DNA of 41,177 bases from Elusimicrobiota bacterium (GTDB lineage Bacteria; Elusimicrobiota; Elusimicrobia; UBA1565; UBA9628). The translations under genes were made by a program, and so were the position numbers. The notes under the pieces were generated by a model that was not told the DNA's origin, did no database searches, and was given only the letters and a program-made list of their open reading frames with translations. The stretch spans positions 161,932 through 203,108 of the forward strand of contig DAIDHS010000001.1 of NCBI GenBank assembly GCA_027451985.1. The letters run 5' to 3'. Positions 13,144-25,770 of this stretch are shown here, one piece after another (positions within the stretch are counted from its first letter, which is position 1; each line of letters opens with the position of its first letter).

Positions 13144-13962
13144 TTAGAACCGCGCCTTGCCGCGCGTCAGGTTGAGGTGAAAGTCGAACATGAAATCGTC
13201 GCCGCGGATGAGCAGGCGCTTCAAGGGTCCCGACTCAGCCTTCCATGGCCAGGGCGAAATGCCTTGCTTGATGCCGAAGTCGTAGCGGTATCCCGCCGCG
13301 CGCGCGAGTTCCCGCACGGCCGGCACGTAGGCGCCCGCGCCGTAAGGGTAAGCGAAACCCACCATCGGCCGGCCGAGCTTCTCCTCCAGGCGCTTCTTGC
13401 TCTCGGATATCTCCCAGCGGGCCTCGTCCGGCGCAATCTCCGGCAGCACGCGGTGGCGCATGGTGTGCGAGCCGAACTCCATCACGCCCGAGCGCGCCAT
13501 CTCCTCGATTTCGCTCCAGCGCAGCATGCGGATCCAGGGCTCGGTCTTGGGATTATGCCAGGAGTTGTGGCTCTCAATCGTCTCGTAGACCAGGAAGATG
13601 TTGCCCTTCAAGCCCAGATCCTTCAAGATGGGATAGGCCAGTTCATAGTTGTTGGCGTAGCCGTCGTCGAAGGTGACCAGAACGGGCTTTGCGGGGCAAG
13701 GCATTTTGCCGTCCTCGATGTCGGCCAAATCTTGGAAGCGTAGCGTGGTGTAGCCGTGCGATTTCAAGTAGTCCATCTGCCGGCGGAAGTCCTCGGCCGT
13801 GACCCAAAGCTTTTGGAGCTGGGAGCCTTTGGGATAATTCCCGATTTTGTGGTACATCAAAGTCGGGATGCCGTTCTTGACGGTCGGCCGCCACCAATTC
13901 CAGCGCGCGCTGGCTCCGATGCCGGCCGCGGCGCCGACTCCCAAAGCGGTTGCGATGATCAT
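13144..13962 (-). CDS. Polysaccharide deacetylase (NodB-type, CE4)
   Basis: This 272-residue protein has an N-terminal hydrophobic stretch (IIATALGVGAAAGIGA) that may be a membrane anchor. The CE4 fold shows GIPTLMYHKIG, motif 1 VLVTFDDGYANN with the metal/catalytic Asp pair, motif 2 FGSHTMRHRVLP with two metal-binding His, and GFAYPYGAG. It would remove N-acetyl groups from a sugar polymer or from a lipid-linked/core sugar. I chose ATG 13962 because it overlaps the GT2 stop as ATGA. Lying among core glycosyltransferases, it may trim a hexosamine on the core; the substrate is inferred. Confidence 0.9.
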   Translation of the reverse strand: MIIATALGVGAAAGIGASARWNWWRPTVKNGIPTLMYHKIGNYPKGSQLQKLWVTAEDFRRQMDYLKSHGYTTLRFQDLADIEDGKMPCPAKPVLVTFDDGYANNYELAYPILKDLGLKGNIFLVYETIESHNSWHNPKTEPWIRMLRWSEIEEMARSGVMEFGSHTMRHRVLPEIAPDEARWEISESKKRLEEKLGRPMVGFAYPYGAGAYVPAVRELARAAGYRYDFGIKQGISPWPWKAESGPLKRLLIRGDDFMFDFHLNLTRGKARF

Positions 13963-14732
13963 GAGGGCCTCTGCGCGTTCTCCAGTTCGCCTAGTTTGAC
14001 ATATTTGAGCCAGTGGTGGAACGCGGAGAGGCCGGCCCACACCATCCCGGCGCGGCCATCTAAGAAGCCCAGCTTCAAAACCGCGCGGGAGAAAAACTCC
14101 CAGGGCAAAATCGCGTGGTGCCAGATGTGGAAGCGCCCGCCGCGCGCAAAGCGCTTCTTGGCCGCGAGGCCGGTGTAAACATCCATTTTCGCGACATACT
14201 CGGAGATGTCCCGGTAAGGGATATGGTCCATCGCGCCGGAAAGCCGTCCAACGGGGCCGCCCAGTTCGATGCCCTCGTGGACTTGCCCGCCTGTAAAGCG
14301 CCCTTGGGCGCGCTTGAAGAGCCGCAGGTGCTTCTCCGAGCCCAGGCCGCCGAAGCGCAGGCGCTTGCCCAGGAAAAAGACGCGGAAGGGAATCTCGAAG
14401 CCGGCGCATTCTCCGGGCGCTTTAACGGCGCGCTTGATGTCTCGCGCGAGTTCGGGGCTCACGCGTTCGTCGCAGTCGATGGACAAGACCCATTCGCCCG
14501 CCGCCAAGTCGAGCGCGGCCTGCTTTTGCCCGGCGTAGCCGTCGAAGGCGCGCACCGCGGTTTTGGCGCCCGCAGCGCGCGCGATGGCGAGCGTCTTGTC
14601 CGCGCTTTCGGCGCCCACCACGATCGCGATCTCGTCGCAGAGCCCGCGCAGGCTTTCGAGGCAGCCGGGCAGATCATGCTCCTCGTCCTTCGCGATGATG
14701 ACGGCGGAAAGCTTGGGCGTCGTCTTATCCAT
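13959..14732 (-). CDS. Glycosyltransferase family 2, WaaE/KdtX-like
   Basis: This 257-residue GT-A glycosyltransferase resembles the core beta-glucosyltransferases WaaE/KdtX/LgtF. It starts LSAVIIAKDEEHDLPGCLES, has the nucleotide-binding IVVGAESADKT, the DxD motif in WVLSIDCDERVSPEL, and the downstream RLFKRAQGRFTGGQVHE typical of this subgroup. No membrane helix is evident beyond a moderately hydrophobic C-terminal region. It overlaps the GT4 gene upstream by 8 bases and the deacetylase downstream by 4 bases. It probably adds a hexose to the inner core. Confidence 0.92.
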   Translation of the reverse strand: MDKTTPKLSAVIIAKDEEHDLPGCLESLRGLCDEIAIVVGAESADKTLAIARAAGAKTAVRAFDGYAGQKQAALDLAAGEWVLSIDCDERVSPELARDIKRAVKAPGECAGFEIPFRVFFLGKRLRFGGLGSEKHLRLFKRAQGRFTGGQVHEGIELGGPVGRLSGAMDHIPYRDISEYVAKMDVYTGLAAKKRFARGGRFHIWHHAILPWEFFSRAVLKLGFLDGRAGMVWAGLSAFHHWLKYVKLGELENAQRPS

Positions 14733-15861
14733 GGAGTTCCTCGTAAATTTTTTCGGTGCGCGCGGCCATGGCCGCCAGGCCGAAGTCGGGCAGGCGGCGC
14801 CGGGCCGCGGCGGACAAGTCCTTGCGCAACTCCTCGTCCTTCATGAGCCGCAGAATGTTCTTGGCCAGGGCCTCGGGATTGCGCGGCTGGCACAAGAGGC
14901 CCGTCTTGCCGTCCTGCACGATTTCCGAGATGCCGCCGGCCGTTGTCGCGGCAATCGGCGCGCCGCAGGCCGCGGCTTCCAGGAGCACGCTGCCCATGCC
15001 CTCGCCCCAGGAAGAAAGCGCGAAGGCGTCCATGCTCTTTAGGAAGCGCGCAGGGTCGGCTACCTGCCCCAACAGGAAAACTTTCCCGGCCAAGCCCATG
15101 CGGCGCACTTGATCCCAAAGGTGGACTTCCAGCGGTCCTTCGCCGCCGATTAAAAAGCGGGCGTCGGGCCGCTCGGCCAGGACTAGGAAGGCCGCGGCCA
15201 CGAGCGTGTCGTGGTCCTTGTGCGGCACCAAAGCGGCCAGGTTGCCGATCCAAAAAGCGTCGGGATCGAGCTTGTATTCGTCGGCGAGCGCTCGGCGCAG
15301 GGCCTTTCTCTCGGGCGGCGCCGCGGGCGGCAAAAAGCGCTCGGGTGGAACCGCGGCCCAGGCGGCCTCCTCGGCCGTGGCCGGGACGGCGTCTGGCACG
15401 ACCGCGATTTTCTCCGCCGGAAGTCCGCCTCGGACCAAGATGTCCTTGATGGCGCAAGACACCGCCACCACGCGCGCGGCGCGGCCGTACTTGAGCGCGC
15501 GGCTGAGTCCCGACTTCACGGGAAAGTCCACCCGGCGGTGGAGCACCGCGGGCGGCCCGCCGAAGGCCTGCGCGAGCACCGCGAAAGACGCGGAGTGCGC
15601 CGTGTGCGCGTGCACGACGGGCCGCTTGGCGCGGGCCGCGGCGCGGCGCAGGGCCAGGGCCGGCAGGGGGTCGAACTCGAAAGCGAAATCGAGCTCCAGG
15701 GTTTCTAAACCCAGCTCCTTGGCCCGGCGGGCGAGATCCGAGCGCTTCTGCGCCGCGACCACGTTGCGGTGTCCGCGCTCTCTGAGCGCGCAGGCCAGGT
15801 AGAGGAGCTGCCTCTCGCCGCCGCGCAGGCCGGCTTGGCCGTCAACGTGGAAAATGTCCAA
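14725..15861 (-). CDS. Glycosyltransferase family 4 (GT-B)
   Basis: This 378-residue retaining GT-B glycosyltransferase has the Gly-rich N-terminal GQAGLRGGERQLLYLA, an acceptor-side VHAHTAHSASFAVLA, the donor-site strand WIGNLAALVPHKDHDTLVAA, FLIGGEGPLE, and the E-x7-E block WGEGMGSVLLEAAACGAP. No ATG or GTG exists near the N terminus. TTG 15861 is preferred because GAGG lies about six bases upstream; a TTG at 15897 lacks any such site and would overlap the upstream gene by 56 bases. With TTG 15861 the overlap is 20 bases. It likely extends the LPS core. Confidence 0.9.
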   Translation of the reverse strand: MDIFHVDGQAGLRGGERQLLYLACALRERGHRNVVAAQKRSDLARRAKELGLETLELDFAFEFDPLPALALRRAAARAKRPVVHAHTAHSASFAVLAQAFGGPPAVLHRRVDFPVKSGLSRALKYGRAARVVAVSCAIKDILVRGGLPAEKIAVVPDAVPATAEEAAWAAVPPERFLPPAAPPERKALRRALADEYKLDPDAFWIGNLAALVPHKDHDTLVAAAFLVLAERPDARFLIGGEGPLEVHLWDQVRRMGLAGKVFLLGQVADPARFLKSMDAFALSSWGEGMGSVLLEAAACGAPIAATTAGGISEIVQDGKTGLLCQPRNPEALAKNILRLMKDEELRKDLSAAARRRLPDFGLAAMAARTEKIYEELHG

Positions 15862-16897
15862 GGGCGTCCTCGTAGGCTTCCTGGGTGGTTGCGGCAAAGG
15901 CGTCGAGAGCGAAGTGCAGCAAAAATCGCTCGCGTCCGCTTTGCCCGGCTTTGCGCGCGAAAGCCGGGTCGGCGATGAGGCCGGAGACGGCCTTGGCCAT
16001 GAGCTGCGGATTGCGCGGGGGGATCAAAAGCCCTGTTTCTCCGTGGGCGACCAGGTCCGGCAGTCCGCCCACGCGCGTGGCGACCACGGGCCGTCCGCGG
16101 GCCATCCACTCCAGGGCCGCGCGCGAAACCGCCTCAGATCCGCGCGAGGCGATAAGGCCGATGGAGCAGCCGTCGATGAATTGGGCCGCGTCCGGCACGC
16201 GGCCCAAAAACTCGATGTTCCGGCCAAGGCCCAGGACGTCCGCCTGCCAGCGAAGCTTCGAGAGCCGCTCGTCGCGCCCATCGCCCGCGGCCAGGAAAAC
16301 CGCCTTGGGGTATCGCTTGCAGACAATCGCCGCGGCGTCGAGAACGTCATCGTGTCCCTTGACCGGATCGAGGCGTCCTAAGATGCCGACGACGGGCTCG
16401 GCCGGCGGGGCCTTGAGATCGGCCGGAAAATCGGCGATGCCGGGCAGGACCCGGCGCGCGCGCACGAAGGGAAAGGCCGCGGCCAGCGCCGCGGTGACGG
16501 GAGAGTTGGCGCCGATGAACAGGGCGGTGCGCCGGGCCAAAAAACGGCGCCCGAAGCTCGCGGCGGGAAGCCGCGCGTCCGCCCAGGTGCGCACGACCGC
16601 GATCGCGCGGCCGAAGGCCAAAGCCGCGGCCAGGGAGTGCGCCGACCCCGTGTGCGCGTCAATGATTTCGACGCCCGCGGACTTGACGGCCCGGCGCAGG
16701 CCCGGCAACGCGGCCCAGGGGCCTCCAAGTTCGCGCACTAGCAACCCCGCCGCGCGCGCCGCTTTCGCGGCGAAGGAGCCGCGCTTGGTCCAAAAATAAA
16801 CGTCGTGCCCGTGGTTCTGCTGGGCCTGGGCCAAGAAGAGCGCATAGTGGGCCAGGCCCGAGTCCCAGATTTCGTCGTGCAAGTGGAGAATTCTCAT
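15842..16897 (-). CDS. Glycosyltransferase family 4 (GT-B)
   Basis: This 351-residue GT-B glycosyltransferase begins MRILHLHDEIWDSGLAHYA and has IIDAHTGSAHSLAAALAFG on the acceptor side, then VVGILGRLDPVKGHDDVLDA, FLAAGDGRDERLS and the donor-binding block SRGSEAVSRAALEWMARGRP followed by GLPDLVAHGETGLLIPP. It shares the short Gly-x-His loop and gene context with the next GT4, so the two may be ancient duplicates acting in sequence on the core. Start ATG 16897 lies 16 bases after the GT9 stop. Confidence 0.92.
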   Translation of the reverse strand: MRILHLHDEIWDSGLAHYALFLAQAQQNHGHDVYFWTKRGSFAAKAARAAGLLVRELGGPWAALPGLRRAVKSAGVEIIDAHTGSAHSLAAALAFGRAIAVVRTWADARLPAASFGRRFLARRTALFIGANSPVTAALAAAFPFVRARRVLPGIADFPADLKAPPAEPVVGILGRLDPVKGHDDVLDAAAIVCKRYPKAVFLAAGDGRDERLSKLRWQADVLGLGRNIEFLGRVPDAAQFIDGCSIGLIASRGSEAVSRAALEWMARGRPVVATRVGGLPDLVAHGETGLLIPPRNPQLMAKAVSGLIADPAFARKAGQSGRERFLLHFALDAFAATTQEAYEDALGHFPR

Positions 16898-16913
16898 GCG
16901 GAGTTCAGCAGGC

Positions 16914-18524
16914 TCACATCATGCCCTTGATGCCGCCCGGAACCTCTCGGGAGCCGGCCTTGGCCGCGGCGGCCGCGGGATTTTGCACGAGCATCTCAAG
17001 GGCGTTCTGCAGCACTTCATCCGTCATGATGAGGCGCATGCACAGGAAGTGGCCATGCGGGCAGGCCTTCCCGCCGTGCAGCCGACAGGGGCGGCAGGGC
17101 AGATCTTCTTCGATGACGCGGTGGCAGGGGCCGTAGGGAAAAAATCCCAGTTCGCGCGTAGTGGGGCCGAAAACGGCCAGGGTCGGCACGCCCAGGCCCG
17201 CAGCCATGTGCATGGGCCCGGAATCGTTGGTGATAAAGAGCGAGAAAAAGGACAGGAGGGCTTTGAGTTCTTTCAAATCGGTCTTGCCGCAGAAATCCCG
17301 CGCGCCGCTTTTCGCCGCGACGCGGGCGCAGAGTTCGGCGTCCTGCGATCCGCCGACTAGGATAGGCGCAAAGCCGCGCTCGGCCAGGCCGCGGCACAGG
17401 GCCGCGAAGCGCTCCTCGGGCCAGCGCTTGGTGGGCCAGGCCGAGCCGGGATGCACGCCGACGCACGTTTTGCCAGGGCCGATTCCGGCCGTCTCCAAGG
17501 CGCGCGCCATCTTTTCTTTTTCCGCCGGATCCGACCGGAGGTAGACCGATTCCGGCGCCGCCCCTGCGGCGCCCGCTTTTGCGTCGCGCCCGCCGCCGAG
17601 CGGCTTTAAGAGCGCCAAGTTTCTTTCGGCGTCCGGCATGAGCCAAGTCCAGGGAACCGCGTCCGTCAGAAGAAAACCGCCGGCGCTTGAGGAAAATCCG
17701 ACGCGGCGCGGGATGCCGGAGAGGCGGGCCAAAAGCGCGCTGCGAAACGAGCGGTGCGGGATAATCGCGGCGTCAAAGCCCTTCTGCCGCAAGCGCCGGG
17801 CCAGGCGCCGCAGGCCGCTAAAGCCGCGGTTTTGTCCGCGCTTATCGTCGATGAGGACTTCGTCGATGGACGGGTGCGCGCGGAAGACGTCGGCGGTCTT
17901 CTCCAGCGTCAGGACCGCGAGCCGCGCGCGGGGAAAGCGGCGCTTGAACTCGTCGGCCAGAGGCAAAGTCAGGAGCGCGTCGCCTAGGAAAGCGCTTTGG
18001 ACGATGAGGAAAGACTTGGCGTCCCTTGAGCCCGCGGCGCCGCCCGAGGAGTAATCGCCCAGGGTCACGCCGGTATTTTGCGGCGCGATGCCCCAGCGGC
18101 CCAGCGCCTCCAGGTAGCGCTCCAGCACGTGCTTTTCCAGCCGCGGCGAGCGCCGGCCAAGGAAGACGAAGAGGCGCCTGGCCCAGGCGTCCTTGCGGTA
18201 GACCGAGACTTCGGGGACGGCCGCGAAGCGCCGCAGAAGCGCGGAGCGCAGGTTGGCGTGAAGGTCCAGGAGGTGCGTAAAGCCCGACGCGCGGATTTTG
18301 GCCAGCGCCGGGAAAAAGCCGTCGAAGGGGATGACCTCGTCCGCGAAAGGGCTGCCCTCCAAGGCGGCGGCGTAGCGGCGCTTGACCAGCACGGAAATCC
18401 GGCACCCGGGCCAGGCGGCTTTTAAGTTGCGCAGGACCGGGGCGACCAGCAGGACATCGCCCAGGGACGAGAGGCGCACCACCAGGATGTTCCGGCGCGC
18501 ATTTGCCGTCGACGATATGCCCAT
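16914..18524 (-). CDS. Heptosyltransferase-like GT9 with an extra N-terminal GT9 half (536 aa)
   Basis: This protein contains one and a half GT9 units. Residues about 10-150 form an acceptor-type Rossmann domain (NILVVRLSSLGDVLLVAPVL, LLDLHANLRSALLRRF) that stops without a donor domain. A complete GT9 enzyme then starts at about residue 170 (FLIVQSAFLGDALLTLPLA, IIPHRSFRSALLARLSGI) and includes the donor domain HPGSAWPTKRWPEERFAALC, LFITNDSGPMHMAAGLGVP and a C-terminal cysteine cluster at about 477-495. Normal GT9 length is near 350. I prefer ATG 18524 over TTG 18539, because a perfect TATAAT sits six bases before this ATG. It is the first gene of the envelope run. Probably a heptosyltransferase; the role of the added half is unknown. 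Confidence 0.9.
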   Translation of the reverse strand: MGISSTANARRNILVVRLSSLGDVLLVAPVLRNLKAAWPGCRISVLVKRRYAAALEGSPFADEVIPFDGFFPALAKIRASGFTHLLDLHANLRSALLRRFAAVPEVSVYRKDAWARRLFVFLGRRSPRLEKHVLERYLEALGRWGIAPQNTGVTLGDYSSGGAAGSRDAKSFLIVQSAFLGDALLTLPLADEFKRRFPRARLAVLTLEKTADVFRAHPSIDEVLIDDKRGQNRGFSGLRRLARRLRQKGFDAAIIPHRSFRSALLARLSGIPRRVGFSSSAGGFLLTDAVPWTWLMPDAERNLALLKPLGGGRDAKAGAAGAAPESVYLRSDPAEKEKMARALETAGIGPGKTCVGVHPGSAWPTKRWPEERFAALCRGLAERGFAPILVGGSQDAELCARVAAKSGARDFCGKTDLKELKALLSFFSLFITNDSGPMHMAAGLGVPTLAVFGPTTRELGFFPYGPCHRVIEEDLPCRPCRLHGGKACPHGHFLCMRLIMTDEVLQNALEMLVQNPAAAAAKAGSREVPGGIKGMM

Positions 18525-18530
18525 CGGGGG

Positions 18531-18536
18531 ATTATA
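18531..18536 (-). promoter_or_regulatory. -10 element (TATAAT) placed for leaderless start of the GT9/LPS run
   Basis: A consensus TATAAT on the minus strand is followed by exactly six bases (CCCCCG) and then the ATG at 18524, so transcription would begin at or next to the A of the start codon. No convincing -35 hexamer lies at 16-18 bases upstream, and there is no ribosome-binding site. It is the best candidate promoter for the 16-gene envelope run. Confidence 0.5.
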
Positions 18537-18578
18537 CAAAAGCTGATCTGCTCCAACATGGTTGAACGGGAAAATCCC

Positions 18579-18608
18579 TTGTAACTTTTTTGTTATGGCT
18601 AGTTACAA
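18579..18608. repeat. Inverted repeat, 8-bp arms TTGTAACT / AGTTACAA
   Basis: Perfect arms at 18579-18586 and 18601-18608 are separated by 14 bases, with further GTTA half-site-like bases inside the spacer. The spacing is larger than a typical terminator loop, and the element lies in the AT-rich divergent promoter region, so it looks like an operator or activator site for the cellulose operon, the LPS run, or both. Confidence 0.5.
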
Positions 18609-18625
18609 CACTAACGATAGCGATT

Positions 18626-18646
18626 TGAAATTTAAGTGTAATTTCA
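18626..18646. repeat. Inverted repeat, 7-bp arms TGAAATT / AATTTCA
   Basis: Perfect arms at 18626-18632 and 18640-18646 flank a 7-base spacer, giving a 21-base dyad typical in size of a dimeric regulator site. It sits about 58 bases upstream of the -35 of the cellulose-synthase promoter candidate. No U-tract follows, which argues against a terminator. Confidence 0.5.
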
Positions 18647-18703
18647 GCTCTTTTTAAGCGGCCAGTTGGGCGCGTCTGATATGAATGCTTTAAGCTCGTA
18701 TGT

Positions 18704-18732
18704 TTGACATTTCATAAATTACCGACAATACT
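18704..18732 (+). promoter_or_regulatory. Sigma-70-type promoter for the bcsA-like operon
   Basis: A consensus -35 TTGACA at 18704-18709 is followed by a 17-base spacer and a -10-like AATACT at 18727-18732 (four of six consensus bases). The predicted start is near 18739, giving a leader of about 19 bases to ATG 18758. That leader has no clear Shine-Dalgarno sequence. Confidence 0.6.
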
Positions 18733-18757
18733 AGACTCGCGAATAAAAGACAATTGA

Positions 18758-21700
18758 ATGGCCCGCTATCTTGTCTGGCTTAACGGCAAAGTTTTCGGGC
18801 CGTTCATTCCTAATGCGTTGCCGTCCATGTACGGCTTTGGCCCGGCGACCATGGTCTGCCCGGACAGTCGTTCGAGCGTCTCCGCCGACGATTGGAAGCA
18901 GGCCGGAGAACTCGAGGAAATCATCGAGAGCATCCAGGCCGAAAGCGCGGCGGGAAATACCAGACGTTTTTCAAGCGCCGAGCGTGCCGGCGGCCTTTCA
19001 AGCGCGGCGGCCGCGGTCAGGGTCCTTAAGGCGGATATGGCCCAAAAAACCTCGTCCAAGGGCACGGCTAAAGCGCTGGCGGAAAGCGAAGGAAAAATTC
19101 GAACGCTGCTTGTGCGTCTGCGCGGCGATGATGAGCATGCCCAGGCAGAGCTTTGCGCGCCCAAGAACTCTTTAAGGCGCAGACAGGCCGCCGCCGCCAT
19201 GAGCGCGGATTTGAAGCTCCAAATCAAAACGTTGGAAGAAATGCTGGAGCGGCTATCGGGACTAAAAAAAGGGCTCGCTTCGGCCGCGGCGCCGGGCCCG
19301 GCCAGGATCCAAGGCCGCCGATTCCTGGCCTGGCTTAACAGCGGTGTCTTCGGGCCTTTCAACCTCGATGAGCTCATCGCTCTGCGCGGCTTCGGACTTA
19401 AGACATTGGTCTGTCCCGAAGGCTATCCGGGAACCGCCCCGGGTGACTGGCGGCCTGCGGGACAGATCAACGACATCTTTGAGTCGATGGGGCGGGCTTT
19501 GGAATCGGATAAGAGCGGAGCCTTGGCTACCGCTCTGCGGCGCGACGAGGAAAGCTCGGAGGCCGGCCGGGCTGTCGGGGAACTGCAGGAAGTTTTCGAA
19601 CGGGAAGACGGCGCGAAGAACTCGCTTGAGAGCATCGCGCGCAATCAAGCCCAAGCCGAAGCTCTGCTTGTGCGTCTGCGCCGCTACGAGTGCGATCTCC
19701 AAGGCGTCGGCGGGCAGCCAGGAAGGCCCGCGCGTCTCATCCAGGCCGCCGCGGCCGCCCGCATGGACGCACGGCTCCAAATCGAAGCCGTCGGTCACTT
19801 CATCGATCGGCTGCGCCGCTTCGAGACCGAGATTCGCGTCCGCGAAAAAGCGCACGCGGAAAAGCGCGCAGGCGCGGAACCCACGGCGGCCGTCCAGGCC
19901 GCCGCGGAGCCAGCGCAATATACTTTCTTGGGACGTCTAGCGGCCATTACGGGGAAATGGGTTTTGATCGCCGTCAGCGCGTTCTTTAGTCTGCGCTACC
20001 TTTTGTGGCGCGGCTTTTACACACTTAATTACGCCAGCAATCTTCACCTTCTCATCAGCGTCCTTCTTTTCTCCGCCGAAATCTACGGCTTCGTCTCGGT
20101 CATGCTGTTCTTCATGCAGGTGCTGGCGCCCAAGGCCGTCAAGTCCGTCCCTTTGGAAGGCGAGCTCCCGGGCGTCGACTTGTTCGTCACCATCTACAAC
20201 GAGCCCTTGGAAATCCTGGAGCAGACGCTCATCGCGTGCAAGGCGCTCGACTATCCGGCGGCCAAGCTGCGCGTACATGTGCTTGACGACGGTCCGCGCG
20301 AGGAAGTGGGGAAATTGGCCGCGAGCTTCGGCTTCAACCATCTGACGCGAGAGAACCGCAGGCACGCCAAGGCCGGCAACTTGAACGCGGGGTTAACGCG
20401 CACAGAGAGCGAGTTCATCATGATCTTGGACGTCGATCACGTCCCCGTGCGCAGCTATCTGCGCGAGACCCTGGGCTTCTTCAAGGATCCGAAGGTCGCT
20501 TTCGTGCAGACTCCGCACCACTTCTACAATCCCGACTGCTACCAGAAAAACCTGCTGCTGGAGGGGCAAGTCGTCAATGAGCAGGATCTTTTTTTCCAGA
20601 TCATCCAGCCGGGAAAAAACGGCGCCAACGCCGCGATTTTCGCGGGAAGTTCGGCGGTCTTCCGTCGCAAGGCGCTGGAGGATATCGGCGGCTTTAAGAC
20701 CGACTGCGCCATCGAGGATTTGCACACCGGCATGGAGCTTCACGCCCGCGGCTGGCGGAGCGTCTACTACAACCGTATTTTATCCGCCGCGCTTTCTCCC
20801 GAGAATTTCGCCGGCTATCTGACCCAGCGCAAGAGGTGGGCCAAGGGCGGCGTGCAGCTCTTTTTCCTGGACAACCCGCTTTGGAAAAAAGGGCTTTCAC
20901 TGCGCCAGCGGCTCTACTATTTTTCCTCCCTGCTTTATTTCTTCCACGGCTGGATGCGGCTCATCTACCTCCTGGCGCCGTTGTCCTTCCTGCTGGCCAG
21001 CTATAACCCCATCGTCGCGTCCATTCCCATGCTGATGTGGTACTTCATCCCGCATTATCTGGCCTCGCACCTGGTCTTCTCACTGCTCACGCGCGAGTAC
21101 CGCAATCCCTTCTGGTCCGATGTCTACGAGTCCGCGTCCAGTTTTGCCCTGTCCTGGACCGCGTTCGAGACGCTCTTTCGTCCGGATTTCCTGGTCTTTA
21201 ACGTCACGCCCAAAGGCTTGAATGCGGCCAAGGAAAAGCTCAAATGGCGCTTGGTGCTGCCGCACATCATCCTGTGCGGCCTCTTGATTGCCGGACTCGT
21301 TGAGGCCACGTACCACTTCATGAACGGCGGCATGCGCTTCGACGCTTTTGGGGTGTCCTGCGTCTGGGCGGCCTTCAACCTCATCCTGCTGGTGAGCTCC
21401 ATCGAGGTCGCCCGCGAGCGTCCGCTCAACCGCCGAGCCATCCGCATCAAGCGCTCGTTTCCGGTCACGCTGTACGTCGGAGACAGAGAGCTTGTCGGAC
21501 GCACCACGGACGTCAGCCTCAGCGGGGCTATGATGGAACTGCGCGAGCGCACGGATCTGCCCCGCCTAGGCCTCATTCATATCGTCGGCGACGGCGATAC
21601 CTTCTTGGCCGAGTGCGAAATCAGGCACAACCGCTGGATGAATAAGACGAAAACGGCGCGTGTCGGGGTCTTTTTTCATAAGATATCGACCGTGCAATCC

Positions 21701-22171
21701 CATCAGCTGGTGCGGCTGCTCTTCTCCGCTCCCGAGAGCTGGATGAACGTCGAGCGGCCGCTGCGCGATTCCGCGCGCTCCTTTAAGGACATCGTGATTT
21801 CAAGCGTGCGCGCGGCTCCCAAAAAAATAGCCGCGGCGGCTTCGGGCGGAGAGGGGCAGTTGGCCTTCTTGATTTTTCAGGGCGCGCGGATCCGCGTGCG
21901 CCTGGACGAATTGGACGGCAATCAGGCGGTCGTTCGGTGGCCGCGCGGCTTCACGCCTCCGGAGGGGCGCCTGTTCCTGTGGATCCCGTCCAAGAGCGGC
22001 AAGGAACGGCTTTTTGCGGTCCGTCCCGGGCAATTCCTCGGCGGCATAGGGGGGGAATGGAACTTCGCGCTGTCTTTGCTGGAATCCAAGGAAAAGCCGG
22101 TTGAGCCCATGGGCCCGTCGGAGGACGCCTTGCAGAATTTTCCACAAAGCGTTCCTGAGATCGCGCAATGA
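18758..22171 (+). CDS. bcsA: BcsA-type cellulose synthase with N-terminal GYF_2-like repeats and PilZ domain
   Basis: This 1137-residue inner-membrane beta-glucan synthase has two GYF_2-like modules at about residues 3-56 and 187-242 (both with WLNx2VFGPF, an internal V/LVCP and a DW-x-x-AG end). Each is followed by a helical, coiled-coil-like stretch. Membrane helices flank the GT2 catalytic domain. Catalytic motifs are LDDG (510-511), DVD (558-560), the IED equivalent of TED (Glu653-Asp654), QRKRW (690-694) and the gating loop FNVTPK (814-819), which is diagnostic for BcsA. A PilZ domain follows with RRAIR (892-896) and DVSLSG (918-923), the c-di-GMP binding motifs. An extra beta-rich tail occupies about 1030-1112. 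The BcsA FFCGS motif reads FAGS here. It is coupled to bcsG by ATGA. No bcsB is nearby. Confidence 0.93.
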   Translation: MARYLVWLNGKVFGPFIPNALPSMYGFGPATMVCPDSRSSVSADDWKQAGELEEIIESIQAESAAGNTRRFSSAERAGGLSSAAAAVRVLKADMAQKTSSKGTAKALAESEGKIRTLLVRLRGDDEHAQAELCAPKNSLRRRQAAAAMSADLKLQIKTLEEMLERLSGLKKGLASAAAPGPARIQGRRFLAWLNSGVFGPFNLDELIALRGFGLKTLVCPEGYPGTAPGDWRPAGQINDIFESMGRALESDKSGALATALRRDEESSEAGRAVGELQEVFEREDGAKNSLESIARNQAQAEALLVRLRRYECDLQGVGGQPGRPARLIQAAAAARMDARLQIEAVGHFIDRLRRFETEIRVREKAHAEKRAGAEPTAAVQAAAEPAQYTFLGRLAAITGKWVLIAVSAFFSLRYLLWRGFYTLNYASNLHLLISVLLFSAEIYGFVSVMLFFMQVLAPKAVKSVPLEGELPGVDLFVTIYNEPLEILEQTLIACKALDYPAAKLRVHVLDDGPREEVGKLAASFGFNHLTRENRRHAKAGNLNAGLTRTESEFIMILDVDHVPVRSYLRETLGFFKDPKVAFVQTPHHFYNPDCYQKNLLLEGQVVNEQDLFFQIIQPGKNGANAAIFAGSSAVFRRKALEDIGGFKTDCAIEDLHTGMELHARGWRSVYYNRILSAALSPENFAGYLTQRKRWAKGGVQLFFLDNPLWKKGLSLRQRLYYFSSLLYFFHGWMRLIYLLAPLSFLLASYNPIVASIPMLMWYFIPHYLASHLVFSLLTREYRNPFWSDVYESASSFALSWTAFETLFRPDFLVFNVTPKGLNAAKEKLKWRLVLPHIILCGLLIAGLVEATYHFMNGGMRFDAFGVSCVWAAFNLILLVSSIEVARERPLNRRAIRIKRSFPVTLYVGDRELVGRTTDVSLSGAMMELRERTDLPRLGLIHIVGDGDTFLAECEIRHNRWMNKTKTARVGVFFHKISTVQSHQLVRLLFSAPESWMNVERPLRDSARSFKDIVISSVRAAPKKIAAAASGGEGQLAFLIFQGARIRVRLDELDGNQAVVRWPRGFTPPEGRLFLWIPSKSGKERLFAVRPGQFLGGIGGEWNFALSLLESKEKPVEPMGPSEDALQNFPQSVPEIAQ

Positions 22172-23724
22172 TCGCCTGGCTCTGGGCGGCCTATTTCGCC
22201 GTCAAGCTGTGGCTCAACTTTAAAGGCGTCATCGCCATCCATTTTTGGCCCAACTTGGCGCTGCTGGCCTTGGCCATGCCCTATGCTCCCAGCCGCGATC
22301 GGGAAGGCGTGAAAAAATCCATGATCGTGCGCCAATGCCTAGCGGTGCCGCTGGGCGCGGCTCTGTTCTGGTACGACTCCTACCTGCCGCCGTTCATTTA
22401 TTCGATGAAGTTCCTCCTGGCGAACAGAAGCCTGGTGTTCAACGGATTTTCCGGCGAGTTCCTCGCTGGGTTTGCCGCGAAAGAAACGTCCTTCATAGCG
22501 CTCGCCGCCCTTTTGGCCCTTTTCCTTTTCGCGGCGAAGAAAAAGCTTCACCCGACGCCCATCGTCTTTCTAGCGCTCATGCTGGTCTTTGTGGAATCCC
22601 TGCGCGGCGGAGGCCGCGGCGTTCCCGCGGATCTGCAGCGCTTTTATGCCCAGCAGGCCAAAGAGCGGGTGCCGTTCCCATCCGGGACGGTTTCGAGCCC
22701 GCCCTTCGACATCGTTTTTATCCACATTTGTTCCCTGGCCTGGGACGATTTGAAAGTCATTCACGAGACAAACCCGCAGTTTTTAGACGACGCCAACATC
22801 GTCTTCACGGATTTCAATTCGGCCACTTCCTACAGCGCTCCGGCGGCGCTGAGGCTCTCCCGCGCGCCCTGCGGCCAAGTTGCTCATGACGCGCTTTATC
22901 GGCCCTGGCCGCCGCAGTGCGATTTGTGGACCCAGCTGCGGGGCGCGGGCTACCGCACCTACGCGCAGCTCAACACCGCTCCCGCCTACTACGGGATGGC
23001 CGCCGAACTTAAAAAGTACGCGGGCCTCGATTGGCCTGGCAAAGTCGACGGCTTGCCGGTGCAGATGCTCAGTTTCGACGGCCAGCCGGTCTACGCCAAC
23101 AAGCCGGTGCTCGATCGGTGGCTCGCCAAGCGCCAACAAGACGGCGAGCCCAGGGCCGCGCTGTTCTACAACACCATCACGCTGCACACCGGCGGGCACA
23201 AGGACGTTCCCGACTGGTGGAAGGAGCCTGCGCTCGACGAATACTCCCAGGCCTTCTCCTCGCTCGATCGTGACCTCGTCGCTTTCGAGGACGAGCTCGC
23301 CCGTGACGGGCGTAGCACGGTCGTCGTCATCGTTCCGGAGCACGGCGCCGCGTTGCGCGGCACACGGATTCAAGCCGCGCAGCTGCGCGACATCCCGCTT
23401 CCGCGCATCACGGAGGTGCCCGTCGCCGTGCGGCTCATCGGCCCGCTGTTCAAGAATGTGCCGGCCAAAATCGCCGTGCCGGCGCCGTCGAGCTACCTGG
23501 CTTTGGCCAAGCTCCTTTCGGACCTTATTTCCGATCCGGGCCTGGCCTCGCGGCCGGGGGCGCTGGCCGCGGAGGCCGGCTCCTTGCCGGCGACTGGATA
23601 CTTGGCCGAAACCCAAAACTGGAAAGTATTCATGGACAAGGGTCAATATTATCTTTTGAGCAAGGACGGCGATTGGCGGACTTTGCCCCGCGAGGATGTC
23701 CCCATTAGGGGGGAAATGCCATGA
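22168..23724 (+). CDS. bcsG: BcsG-type cellulose phosphoethanolamine transferase
   Basis: This 518-residue protein has about five N-terminal membrane helices (to about residue 145) and a periplasmic alkaline-phosphatase-fold domain. In E. coli, BcsG transfers phosphoethanolamine from phosphatidylethanolamine to cellulose. The active-site set is present: Cys188 in HICSLAWDD, nucleophile Ser223 in NSATSYSAPAALRL, His340 in TITLHTGGH, and Glu391-His392 in VIVPEHGAALRG. The blocks SRAPCGQVAH and LRDIPLPRITEVPV also match BcsG. It overlaps the synthase stop by ATGA and the next gene by ATGA. BcsE and BcsF, its E. coli partners, are absent from the window. Confidence 0.93.
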   Translation: MIAWLWAAYFAVKLWLNFKGVIAIHFWPNLALLALAMPYAPSRDREGVKKSMIVRQCLAVPLGAALFWYDSYLPPFIYSMKFLLANRSLVFNGFSGEFLAGFAAKETSFIALAALLALFLFAAKKKLHPTPIVFLALMLVFVESLRGGGRGVPADLQRFYAQQAKERVPFPSGTVSSPPFDIVFIHICSLAWDDLKVIHETNPQFLDDANIVFTDFNSATSYSAPAALRLSRAPCGQVAHDALYRPWPPQCDLWTQLRGAGYRTYAQLNTAPAYYGMAAELKKYAGLDWPGKVDGLPVQMLSFDGQPVYANKPVLDRWLAKRQQDGEPRAALFYNTITLHTGGHKDVPDWWKEPALDEYSQAFSSLDRDLVAFEDELARDGRSTVVVIVPEHGAALRGTRIQAAQLRDIPLPRITEVPVAVRLIGPLFKNVPAKIAVPAPSSYLALAKLLSDLISDPGLASRPGALAAEAGSLPATGYLAETQNWKVFMDKGQYYLLSKDGDWRTLPREDVPIRGEMP

Positions 23725-24494
23725 GGCGCGCGGCTGCGGTTCTGGCCCTTTTATTGAGCGCTGCCAGCGCGCGCGCCTGGCAGCCGCTGGCGTACCCGTT
23801 CACCGATTGGAACGAGTTCTCCAGCGACTTTAACAAGGTCCAAGGAGACGCCTCCATGGGCTGGGTCCAGCAGGGCGTCGACTGGCTCAAGCTTCCCGGC
23901 GGCGCCGTTTTCGACACTTTCGGCGGCTATTATTGGATGGCCCGTTCGGACAACCAGACTTACTTCAACCAGAACGGGCCTTACGCCGGTGCGATGATCT
24001 CGCGCGGAGCCTTCAACGTCGGCGCACAATACTACTGGGAAACCTTTCCCGTGTTGCGCCAATACGCCCGGGATCCGCAGCTCTTCGGAACCTGGTATAA
24101 AACCGTGGATTTGGGGCTGCCCGCCGCGCTTTCGGGCAAGGCCCTGGGAGCGCCCTTTTCCACATGGGGGCGCGTCCAATACGACGCCAATTCCATCGAA
24201 GGATTGGGAACCATGGGATGGTTCCAACAGGGCGTAGACTGGTTCAAGCTTCCCGGCGGCGTGATTTTTGACACTTACGGCGCATTCCGCTGGTTCGAGC
24301 GCAGCCGCAACGAGAAGTATTACGACGAGCTCGGCCCGGCCGTCGGCGTGGAATTCACCCGCGGCCCCCTCAATCTTTACGTGGAGTATGATTGGCAGCG
24401 CTACCCGGACATCCCGCAATCCGTCGACGGCCCGCAAGTCTTCCTGACTTTCTATTTCAGTCAGGATTTGGCCCGGCTCAAAGCCAGTCTTTGA
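23721..24494 (+). CDS. Secreted protein of two tandem homologous domains, function unknown
   Basis: This 257-residue protein has a signal peptide (about residues 1-19, VLALLLSAASARA). The mature part is a tandem duplication: residues 46-128 and 165-247 share GWxQQGVDWxKLPGGxxFDT, an aromatic strand, N-x-x-YxxxxGP, TRGxxN or SRGxxN, and a final YYWETFP or YDWQRYP. Alternating aromatic and small residues suggest beta-strands, so a small outer-membrane barrel or a periplasmic glucan-binding protein is possible. I do not recognise a named family. It is coupled to bcsG by ATGA, so it is probably part of polymer secretion or anchoring. Its last 17 bases overlap the convergent waaA end. Confidence 0.88.
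   Translation: MRRAAAVLALLLSAASARAWQPLAYPFTDWNEFSSDFNKVQGDASMGWVQQGVDWLKLPGGAVFDTFGGYYWMARSDNQTYFNQNGPYAGAMISRGAFNVGAQYYWETFPVLRQYARDPQLFGTWYKTVDLGLPAALSGKALGAPFSTWGRVQYDANSIEGLGTMGWFQQGVDWFKLPGGVIFDTYGAFRWFERSRNEKYYDELGPAVGVEFTRGPLNLYVEYDWQRYPDIPQSVDGPQVFLTFYFSQDLARLKASL
23856..24461 (+). repeat. Internal gene duplication within the secreted cellulose-locus protein
   Basis: Two copies of about 249 bases, 23856-24104 and 24213-24461, encode the tandem domains. Identity persists at DNA level around the conserved core: TCAAGCTTCCCGGCGGCG occurs in both copies. This points to duplication within the gene. Confidence 0.8.
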
Positions 24495-25770
24495 GGTCGT
24501 CGAGCGTCCGCTCGACCGCGCCTTGCAGGCTCGTGGCGGCGCCTTTGGCGGCTTTGGCCGCGGCGCGGGCTTTCTCCGGCAGGGCGGCCAGGCTTTGCAG
24601 CTTCATGGCCAGCTCCCCGGCGTCTTGGACCTTGAAGCCGCCGCCGGCCTCCTCCAGCGCGCGCGCGACGTCCTCCACGTGGGCCGTGTAGGGGCCGAAG
24701 GCGACCGGGCTGCCCGCGAGCGCGGGCTCCAAAATGTTGTGCCCGCCGATGGGCACGAGCGTGCCGCCCACGAAGGACAAAAGCGCGCGGCCGTAGAAGG
24801 CGGGCAAAATCCCCATGGCGTCAAGCAGCAGTACTGAGGAATTCGCCGGGCGCTCGGGCTTGGACCACGCGCAGTACGCGAGGCGGCGGCGCTCGAGGTT
24901 CCGGGCGGCCTCGTGCGCGCGTTCCACGTGGCGCGGGGCCAATACGAGCTTCAAGGCCGGAACGCGCTCTTGCGCGGCCGCGTAGGCGTTGAGGACGACG
25001 TCTTCCTCGGCGGGGTGCGTGCTGCCCGCCACGAAGAGCGGGGCGCCCTCCCAGCCGAGGTCCGCAACGGCTTTGGCCGCGGCCTCCACGGGCCCCGCGG
25101 CGGGCGTCACGTCGTACTTGAGGTTTCCCAGCGCGCGCACGCGTTCTGCCGGAGCGCCCAGGGCTTCAAAGCGTGCGGCGTGCTCCTCGCTTTGCGCCGC
25201 CACCCGTCCCACGCGCGCCAAGAAGGGGCGGGTCAGAAAGGCGAAGGGCTTGGTGCGCGCGAAGCTGCGCTTCGAGATGCGCCCGTTGACCACCGCGATT
25301 TTGACGCCGCGCCGGGAGCAAAGCGCGATCATGTGCGGCCAGAGCTCGGTCTCCGCGACGAGGAGAATCTTGGGCTTTATTTGCAGCAAAAAGCGGGAGA
25401 CTGCGGAGTAGATGTCGAGCGGAGCCAAGAGCGCCGCGTCCACGGCGGAGAGGCTCCTGGCCCGCTCGCGCCCGGCCGCGGTCGAGCAGGTCATCACCAC
25501 GGCGGGGGGATTTTTGGCGCGGCTCTTCAAGCGCCGGACGAACTCCGAGACCGCGGAGACCTCGCCGGCCGAGGCCGCGTGGACCCAGACGACTTCGCGG
25601 CCCTTCAAGGCGGCGAGCGCGGGCATCGGGACGAACCCCAAGCGCTCGGGAAGCTCGGCCGAAAGTCCGCGCAGCAGGGCGCGGCGGCGCGAGAGCGCGA
25701 ACTTCAAGACGACGGCCAGGCCGACCAGCGGGAAAAAGAGATTCTCGGCGGCAAGGACCAGGAAAATCAT
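24478..25770 (-). CDS. waaA: 3-deoxy-D-manno-octulosonic acid transferase (Kdo transferase) WaaA
   Basis: This 430-residue inner-membrane GT30 enzyme transfers Kdo from CMP-Kdo to lipid IVA. It has an N-terminal anchor (FLVLAAENLFFPLVGLAVVL), VVWVHAASAGEVSAVSEFVR with the catalytic Glu, VMTCSTAAGRERA, LVAETELWPHM, the donor-domain AGSTHPAEEDVVL, LAPRHVERA and FVGGTLVPIGGHNILEPA. All match WaaA. Its ATG overlaps the DUF374 stop. The gene stops inside the end of the convergent secreted-protein gene. Whether it adds one or more Kdo residues cannot be read from the sequence. Confidence 0.96.
   Translation of the reverse strand: MIFLVLAAENLFFPLVGLAVVLKFALSRRRALLRGLSAELPERLGFVPMPALAALKGREVVWVHAASAGEVSAVSEFVRRLKSRAKNPPAVVMTCSTAAGRERARSLSAVDAALLAPLDIYSAVSRFLLQIKPKILLVAETELWPHMIALCSRRGVKIAVVNGRISKRSFARTKPFAFLTRPFLARVGRVAAQSEEHAARFEALGAPAERVRALGNLKYDVTPAAGPVEAAAKAVADLGWEGAPLFVAGSTHPAEEDVVLNAYAAAQERVPALKLVLAPRHVERAHEAARNLERRRLAYCAWSKPERPANSSVLLLDAMGILPAFYGRALLSFVGGTLVPIGGHNILEPALAGSPVAFGPYTAHVEDVARALEEAGGGFKVQDAGELAMKLQSLAALPEKARAAAKAAKGAATSLQGAVERTLDDLKDWL

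Follow-up and report, generated by a model that had tools for sequence, protein, structure and literature searches.

A probable glucan locus of Elusimicrobiota with a reduced BcsG-containing gene set, a BcsA-like synthase, no detectable BcsB, and a predicted outer-membrane beta-barrel as proposed export pore

The window, that is, the whole stretch of 41,177 nucleotides analyzed here, belongs to a genome of the little-studied phylum Elusimicrobiota (2.41 Mb, 107 contigs, 95.4% complete) and contains three open reading frames of the + strand at positions 18758-24494. In detail, these are the gene of a BcsA-like GT2 synthase with a PilZ domain (18758..22171, 1137 aa), the gene of the phosphoethanolamine transferase BcsG (22168..23724, 518 aa), and the gene of a protein designated P0003 (23721..24494, 257 aa), with a signal peptide and a predicted 12-stranded outer-membrane beta-barrel, for which a function as export pore is proposed. 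The coupling through ATGA overlaps put forward in the preliminary description of this DNA was confirmed, with 4 bases shared at both junctions (22168..22171 and 23721..23724, + strand). The same 4-base overlap of synthase and BcsG genes is found in the related loci L037 and L038.

The synthase gene is preceded by an AT-rich gap of 218 bases (18540-18757, 38% GC), which includes a sigma-70-like promoter candidate, TTGACA-17-AATACT (18704..18732, + strand), 25 bases 5′ of the first ATG; this is a lead only, as two such candidates occur in the region against 1.1 expected by chance. Upstream of the operon lies a divergent cluster of GT9-, GT4-, and GT2-like glycosyltransferase genes with a polysaccharide deacetylase (13144-18539, − strand), probably an envelope glycan locus adjoining the operon. 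Downstream, a convergent KDO transferase gene (24478-25770, − strand) overlaps the end of the P0003 gene tail-to-tail by 17 bases. With divergent neighbors on the one side and a convergent neighbor on the other, the operon consists of three genes and no more. A Pfam scan of the neighboring genes showed none for BcsE, BcsF, BcsR, or BcsQ.

The synthase is matched by the CelA model TIGR03030 with 570.6 bits over residues about 395-1020, which is below the trusted cut-off of this NCBIfam equivalog (699.1), and the next, non-cellulose models follow at a distance (PgaC 82 and NodC 33 bits). Its best PDB matches are the E. coli BcsA structures. The GT2 catalytic core (residues 471-764; 20168..21049, + strand) retains the DDG, DxD, ED, and QxxRW motifs intact (D510-D511, D558/D560, E653-D654, and Q690-R693-W694). 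It is followed by the gating-loop motif FNVTPKG (residues 814-820; 21197..21217, + strand) and by a PilZ domain (residues 891-989; 21428..21724, + strand; 42 bits) with RxxxR and DxSxxG. Thus, the synthase motifs described earlier as intact are so in the catalytic, gating-loop, and PilZ parts. The FFCGS motif of BcsA is replaced by FAGS (residues 628-631; 20639..20650, + strand), a Cys to Ala change common to the BcsB-less clade described below, and IED stands where TED is expected. Five GGDEF matches were found in the genome, which makes a control by c-di-GMP plausible.

The N-terminal 390 residues of the synthase (18758..19927, + strand) form an extension with two GYF_2-like repeats, at about residues 1-60 and 188-245. 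The Pfam match is below the family cut-off (17.7 bits), and the two copies are visibly alike. This extension was not seen in the related synthases and is private to the window synthase, with paralogous GYF_2-like repeats in two other proteins of the same genome. In E. coli, the N-terminal domain of BcsA recruits three BcsG (PMC11379886). Since the window extension is of another kind and is absent from the relatives, this mode of recruitment is not evidently available here. The structure prediction of the synthase had a pLDDT of 55.6, too low for use.

In the phylogenetic tree, the window synthase is placed in a clade with 99/97 support, which unites ten BcsB-less synthases of the two phyla Elusimicrobiota and Nitrospirota with the synthase of L105 (Nitrospirota). 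This clade is sister to, and not inside, the BcsA clade (100/100 support), in which every BcsB-accompanied synthase is found together with the BcsA of E. coli and Methylobacterium; the node joining both clades has a support of 83/79 only. All ten BcsB-less members share F/Y-AG(S/T), with FAGT as the variant of L029. L105 has YTGS, and the BcsB-accompanied synthases have FCGS. The synthases of three Nitrospirota loci without BcsB (L115, L117, and L118) fall outside the 99/97 clade, and in these FFCGS is replaced by FVGS. The grouping with non-cellulose GT2 enzymes, which the preliminary description had named as evidence that would speak against it, did not occur with the chitin-oligosaccharide, mixed-linkage-like, and HlyD-type glucan synthases included as tree references.

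BcsG was identified with 376.4 bits by PF11658 (gathering cut-off 24.8), without any competing Pfam family. The sole NCBIfam model matched was TIGR03368, with 368.7 bits, a score lower than its equivalog cut-off of 410.2, and the sole PDB match is the solved E. coli BcsG. The earlier concern that the protein might score below other phosphoethanolamine transferases was not borne out. The protein consists of an N-terminal membrane part and a periplasmic domain of the alkaline-phosphatase fold (residues 154-504). Its C188, S223, H340, E391, and H392 align with C243, S278, H396, E442, and H443 of the E. coli enzyme, which are catalytic or zinc residues, so that the full active-site set ascribed to it from the sequence holds and is extended by His340. 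In a phylogeny of BcsG, the protein of the window groups with those of L037, L038, and L039. A Thr is found at the expected Ser278 position in the BcsG of L115.

The subunits that are missing were sought by profile searches of assembled genomes, and the absences are to be read within this scope, the window genome being 95.4% complete. There is no match of BcsB (PF03170) in the window genome, nor in the cassette genomes G151, G167, G238, G233, G570, G530, G460, G346, and G305; of the cassette-type genomes, those from Nitrospirota, five in number, all lack it. Within Elusimicrobiota, only 3 of the 14 genomes with BcsG contain BcsB, which is readily detected in related loci (336-384 bits). The BcsC barrel domain (BcsC_C, PF05420) is absent from all 14 Elusimicrobiota BcsG genomes searched, and BcsZ (GH8, PF01270) from all ten cassette genomes checked, the window genome being included in both sets. 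GH10 is found in two of the ten cassette genomes.

The third gene had been described as encoding a secreted protein of no known family, and this was upheld: P0003 carries a signal peptide and gave no Pfam match and no PDB sequence match, whether searched as the protein or as its alignment. An alignment of 11-13 relatives revealed two repeats of about 115 residues (23781..24137 and 24138..24491, + strand). In the AlphaFold2 model (pLDDT 87.7) there are 12 strands, six per repeat. The fold search of the PDB with this model returned 33 matches at E≤0.001, with 12-stranded autotransporter barrels first, followed by OmpG, FapF (5o68), PgaA (4y25), and porins, and also invasin and LpxR; the E-values are convincing and the TM-scores moderate, only about 0.4. 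The strands are two-faced, with a hydropathy alternation that was as strong in only 2 of 5000 shuffles. Signal peptide, an even number of two-faced strands, and a predicted barrel fold are thus combined in one protein, and, on the strength of the model, P0003 is most likely a 12-stranded outer-membrane beta-barrel built from two six-strand repeats. It was also considered as a distant BcsC barrel and rejected, because profile similarity is lacking (hhalign probability 0.9%, no PF05420 match). A role as substitute of BcsB was likewise rejected, because the family is also present in the BcsB-positive loci L027, L028, L030, L046, L106, L108, and L116. A plasmid search for P0003 relatives returned none.

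Among 295 Elusimicrobiota genomes, BcsG is present in 14 and the P0003 family in 14, and 11 have both, against 0.66 expected (hypergeometric P = 4e-15, a guide value which ignores the relatedness of the genomes). BcsG alone is present in three genomes, and the P0003 family alone in three. A scan of named genomes showed 12 loci of the P0003 family in Elusimicrobiota and one in Nitrospirota, the latter with a single-repeat form of the barrel directly after a BcsA. In Nitrospirota, the family was found, with one repeat or two, in 20 of the 296 genomes drawn. The synteny expected across related genomes was recovered, as the order BcsA-BcsG-P0003 without BcsB recurs, beyond the window, in L037 and L038 of Elusimicrobiota and in L102, L103, and L104 of Nitrospirota. 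In L037 and L038, other genes precede the synthase.

In two Nitrospirota loci, the barrel occurs together with BcsB and BcsZ (GH8). L106 has BcsA, BcsB, GH8, BcsG, and the barrel together. L108 shows the order BcsA-BcsB-GH8-[TPR-barrel fusion, 1062 aa]-BcsG, in which the barrel, as the C-terminal part of the fusion, occupies the exact slot of BcsC and the fusion of TPR and P0003 barrel reproduces the BcsC architecture. The family resembles BcsC in its operon position and TPR fusion in L108, in its co-location with BcsB and GH8 in L106, and in being a predicted outer-membrane barrel; it differs from BcsC in having 12 strands from two repeats and in standing apart from TPR in most genomes. For instance, the gene just 5′ of the synthase gene in L038 (L038:12698-15619) encodes a TPR protein that carries a signal peptide, and TPR and barrel are here on separate proteins. 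In alginate secretion, TPR and barrel are also on separate proteins, AlgK and AlgE, and a split of this kind is seen in L037/L038 and L032. P0003 homologues are also found beside synthases without an adjacent BcsG (L054, L055, L105, and L111-L113), which indicates that the barrel tracks the synthase more than BcsG. In the Nitrospirota loci L105, L111, L112, and L113, a single-repeat six-strand barrel is positioned directly 3′ of the synthase, with no BcsG adjacent, and the barrel protein of L113 has TPR repeats at its own N-terminus.

Several types of Bcs systems are recognized (PMC11470070). Compared with the type II system of E. coli (bcsRQABZC / bcsEFG), the window locus is alike in having a PilZ-controlled GT2 and a BcsG with all catalytic residues. 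It differs in that BcsB, the BcsC barrel, and BcsZ are not detectable in its genome, the synthase belongs to a sister clade with FAGS, and the BcsG-recruiting N-terminal domain is not recognized. Furthermore, BcsC consists of a TPR solenoid and a 16-stranded barrel (PMC11379886), in place of which a 12-strand barrel is predicted here. Glucan synthases of the GT2 type with PilZ and no BcsB are known in cyanobacteria and clostridia (PMC12430437, PMC7710045), so that independence of BcsB is not without precedent, although the partners in those systems are different ones and BcsG is not among them. The cyanobacterial XcsA and the clostridial CcsZABHI share with the window a GT2 with PilZ and no BcsB homologue; in contrast to the window, the partner is an HlyD-like protein or CcsB, an acetylation module is present in clostridia, and neither system has been described with BcsG or a P0003-type barrel. 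PgaA and FapF, which are barrel exporters of a synthase-made polymer or of amyloid, are fold matches of P0003, and no sequence relation to them was found.

The three genes probably form an envelope-spanning system for a phosphoethanolamine-modified beta-glucan, with P0003 as the export pore. In the scheme that we infer for product, transfer, and export, the PilZ synthase would polymerize UDP-glucose without a BcsB subunit, c-di-GMP would open its gate, and the chain would cross the inner membrane via the transmembrane channel of the synthase itself. BcsG, anchored beside the synthase, would take phosphoethanolamine from phospholipid and attach it, on the periplasmic side, to the chain as it emerges, and P0003, with its predicted barrel fold, would let the chain out through the outer membrane; it is most likely an export pore in the role of the barrel half of BcsC. 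This three-gene reading is supported by the active-site residues of BcsG, the motifs and the CelA score of the synthase, the GGDEF matches, the predicted fold of P0003, the co-occurrence, the recurrent gene order, the BcsC slot in L108, the absent subunits, and the 99/97 clade. The points against it are that, according to the literature on the systems studied so far, BcsA needs BcsB for its activity (PMC11379886), that the organism is known from an assembled genome alone, that the window has no neighboring TPR gene to account for a bridging of the periplasm, that the E. coli mode of BcsG recruitment is not evident here, and that BcsG and P0003 each occur without the other in three genomes. For the pore role, further points against are the lack of a sequence link to the BcsC barrel, the TM-scores of only about 0.4, and the width, since a pore of 12 strands is narrower than that of BcsC with its 16. 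The minimal, differently built system for a modified beta-glucan, as proposed in the preliminary description, is upheld as regards BcsG, the cellulose-synthase-like GT2, and the reduced gene set, whose members stay together in further genomes, including some of another phylum; the product may be cellulose and would carry the modification.

The position of the synthases outside the clade that holds the E. coli and Methylobacterium BcsA, the Cys to Ala change of FFCGS in nearly all clade members, and the hydrolases by related loci, GH10 or GH26 and not the GH8 of BcsZ, would suit another beta-glucan, with a different linkage or a lower chain length, as the product of a sister-clade synthase whose acceptor site is altered, with BcsG still decorating it. 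This is unlikely, given that the other motifs of catalysis and gating resemble those of cellulose synthases, with CelA as the best model by far; to our knowledge, BcsG is known only on cellulose. Somewhat less likely still is that P0003 is a lipid- or polymer-modifying or anchoring outer-membrane barrel which accompanies BcsG, export being served by an unrelated pore encoded elsewhere. Barrels of similar size do include enzymes and adhesin anchors, with invasin and LpxR among the fold matches, and single-repeat forms exist in Nitrospirota. Nevertheless, the homologues beside synthases lacking an adjacent BcsG, the TPR fusion in the BcsC slot, and the absence of the BcsC barrel from the Elusimicrobiota genomes argue for the export role.

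After the profile searches for BcsB, BcsC_C, and GH8, a canonical type II system of which some genes are located elsewhere was rejected as the likely reading. That the system is an ordinary one, with BcsB, BcsC, and BcsZ hidden in gaps of the assembly or too divergent to be recognized, is held to be highly improbable: an assembly of 107 contigs, 95% complete, leaves gaps, and profile searches can miss extreme divergence, but BcsB is absent in ten cassette-type genomes of two phyla, yet easily found in related loci, the divergent and convergent flanks indicate a complete operon, and the synthases form a clade of their own. The data support a glucan system of few genes that includes BcsG and a previously undescribed barrel, and that is not a canonical type II Bcs.

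More tentatively, and with somewhat less than even confidence, these loci may represent a type of their own among the synthase-dependent systems of polysaccharide secretion, found at least in the phyla Elusimicrobiota and Nitrospirota. Its synthase would be gated by c-di-GMP and independent of BcsB, its barrel would be modular, with a six-strand unit that is either duplicated or fused to TPR, and these two parts together with BcsG would be enough for the synthesis, decoration, and export of a zwitterionic glucan, possibly not cellulose. A search of openly accessible literature returned no report of the cassette in Elusimicrobiota or of BcsG in Nitrospirota. BcsB is regarded as necessary for the activity of BcsA, and BcsC as the pore of exit. 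With a conserved cassette that has BcsG and lacks both, three genes allow a direct test of the minimal machinery for phosphoethanolamine-glucan, and the occurrence of BcsG is seen to extend beyond type II loci. The family of the barrel, which has no Pfam entry, gains a proposed function; in its single six-strand, duplicated 12-strand, and TPR-fused forms, it would represent naturally modular polysaccharide export pores. For materials research, the cassette may also be of use as a small gene set that yields modified glucan.

Variation in gene content was observed in other loci of the two families. In L031 (= L050), BcsG is present as two copies in tandem, with the barrel gene 3′ of them (L031:435-3238); BcsG begins near the contig start, and the contig portion examined contains no synthase. 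BcsG in L035, L036, and L039 is without a nearby synthase or barrel. A gene of a PMT-like membrane glycosyltransferase is located between synthase and barrel in L115 (L115:5437-11071), and L117 and L118 have a gap of similar size there. A shorter, PilZ-less GT2 synthase is found with a GH26 protein and the barrel in L032:8928-16005, in which a TPR protein is also present, and in L034:6018-11457, L054:6987-10771, and L123:2480-5755; these four are a further kind of glucan locus with the same barrel family.
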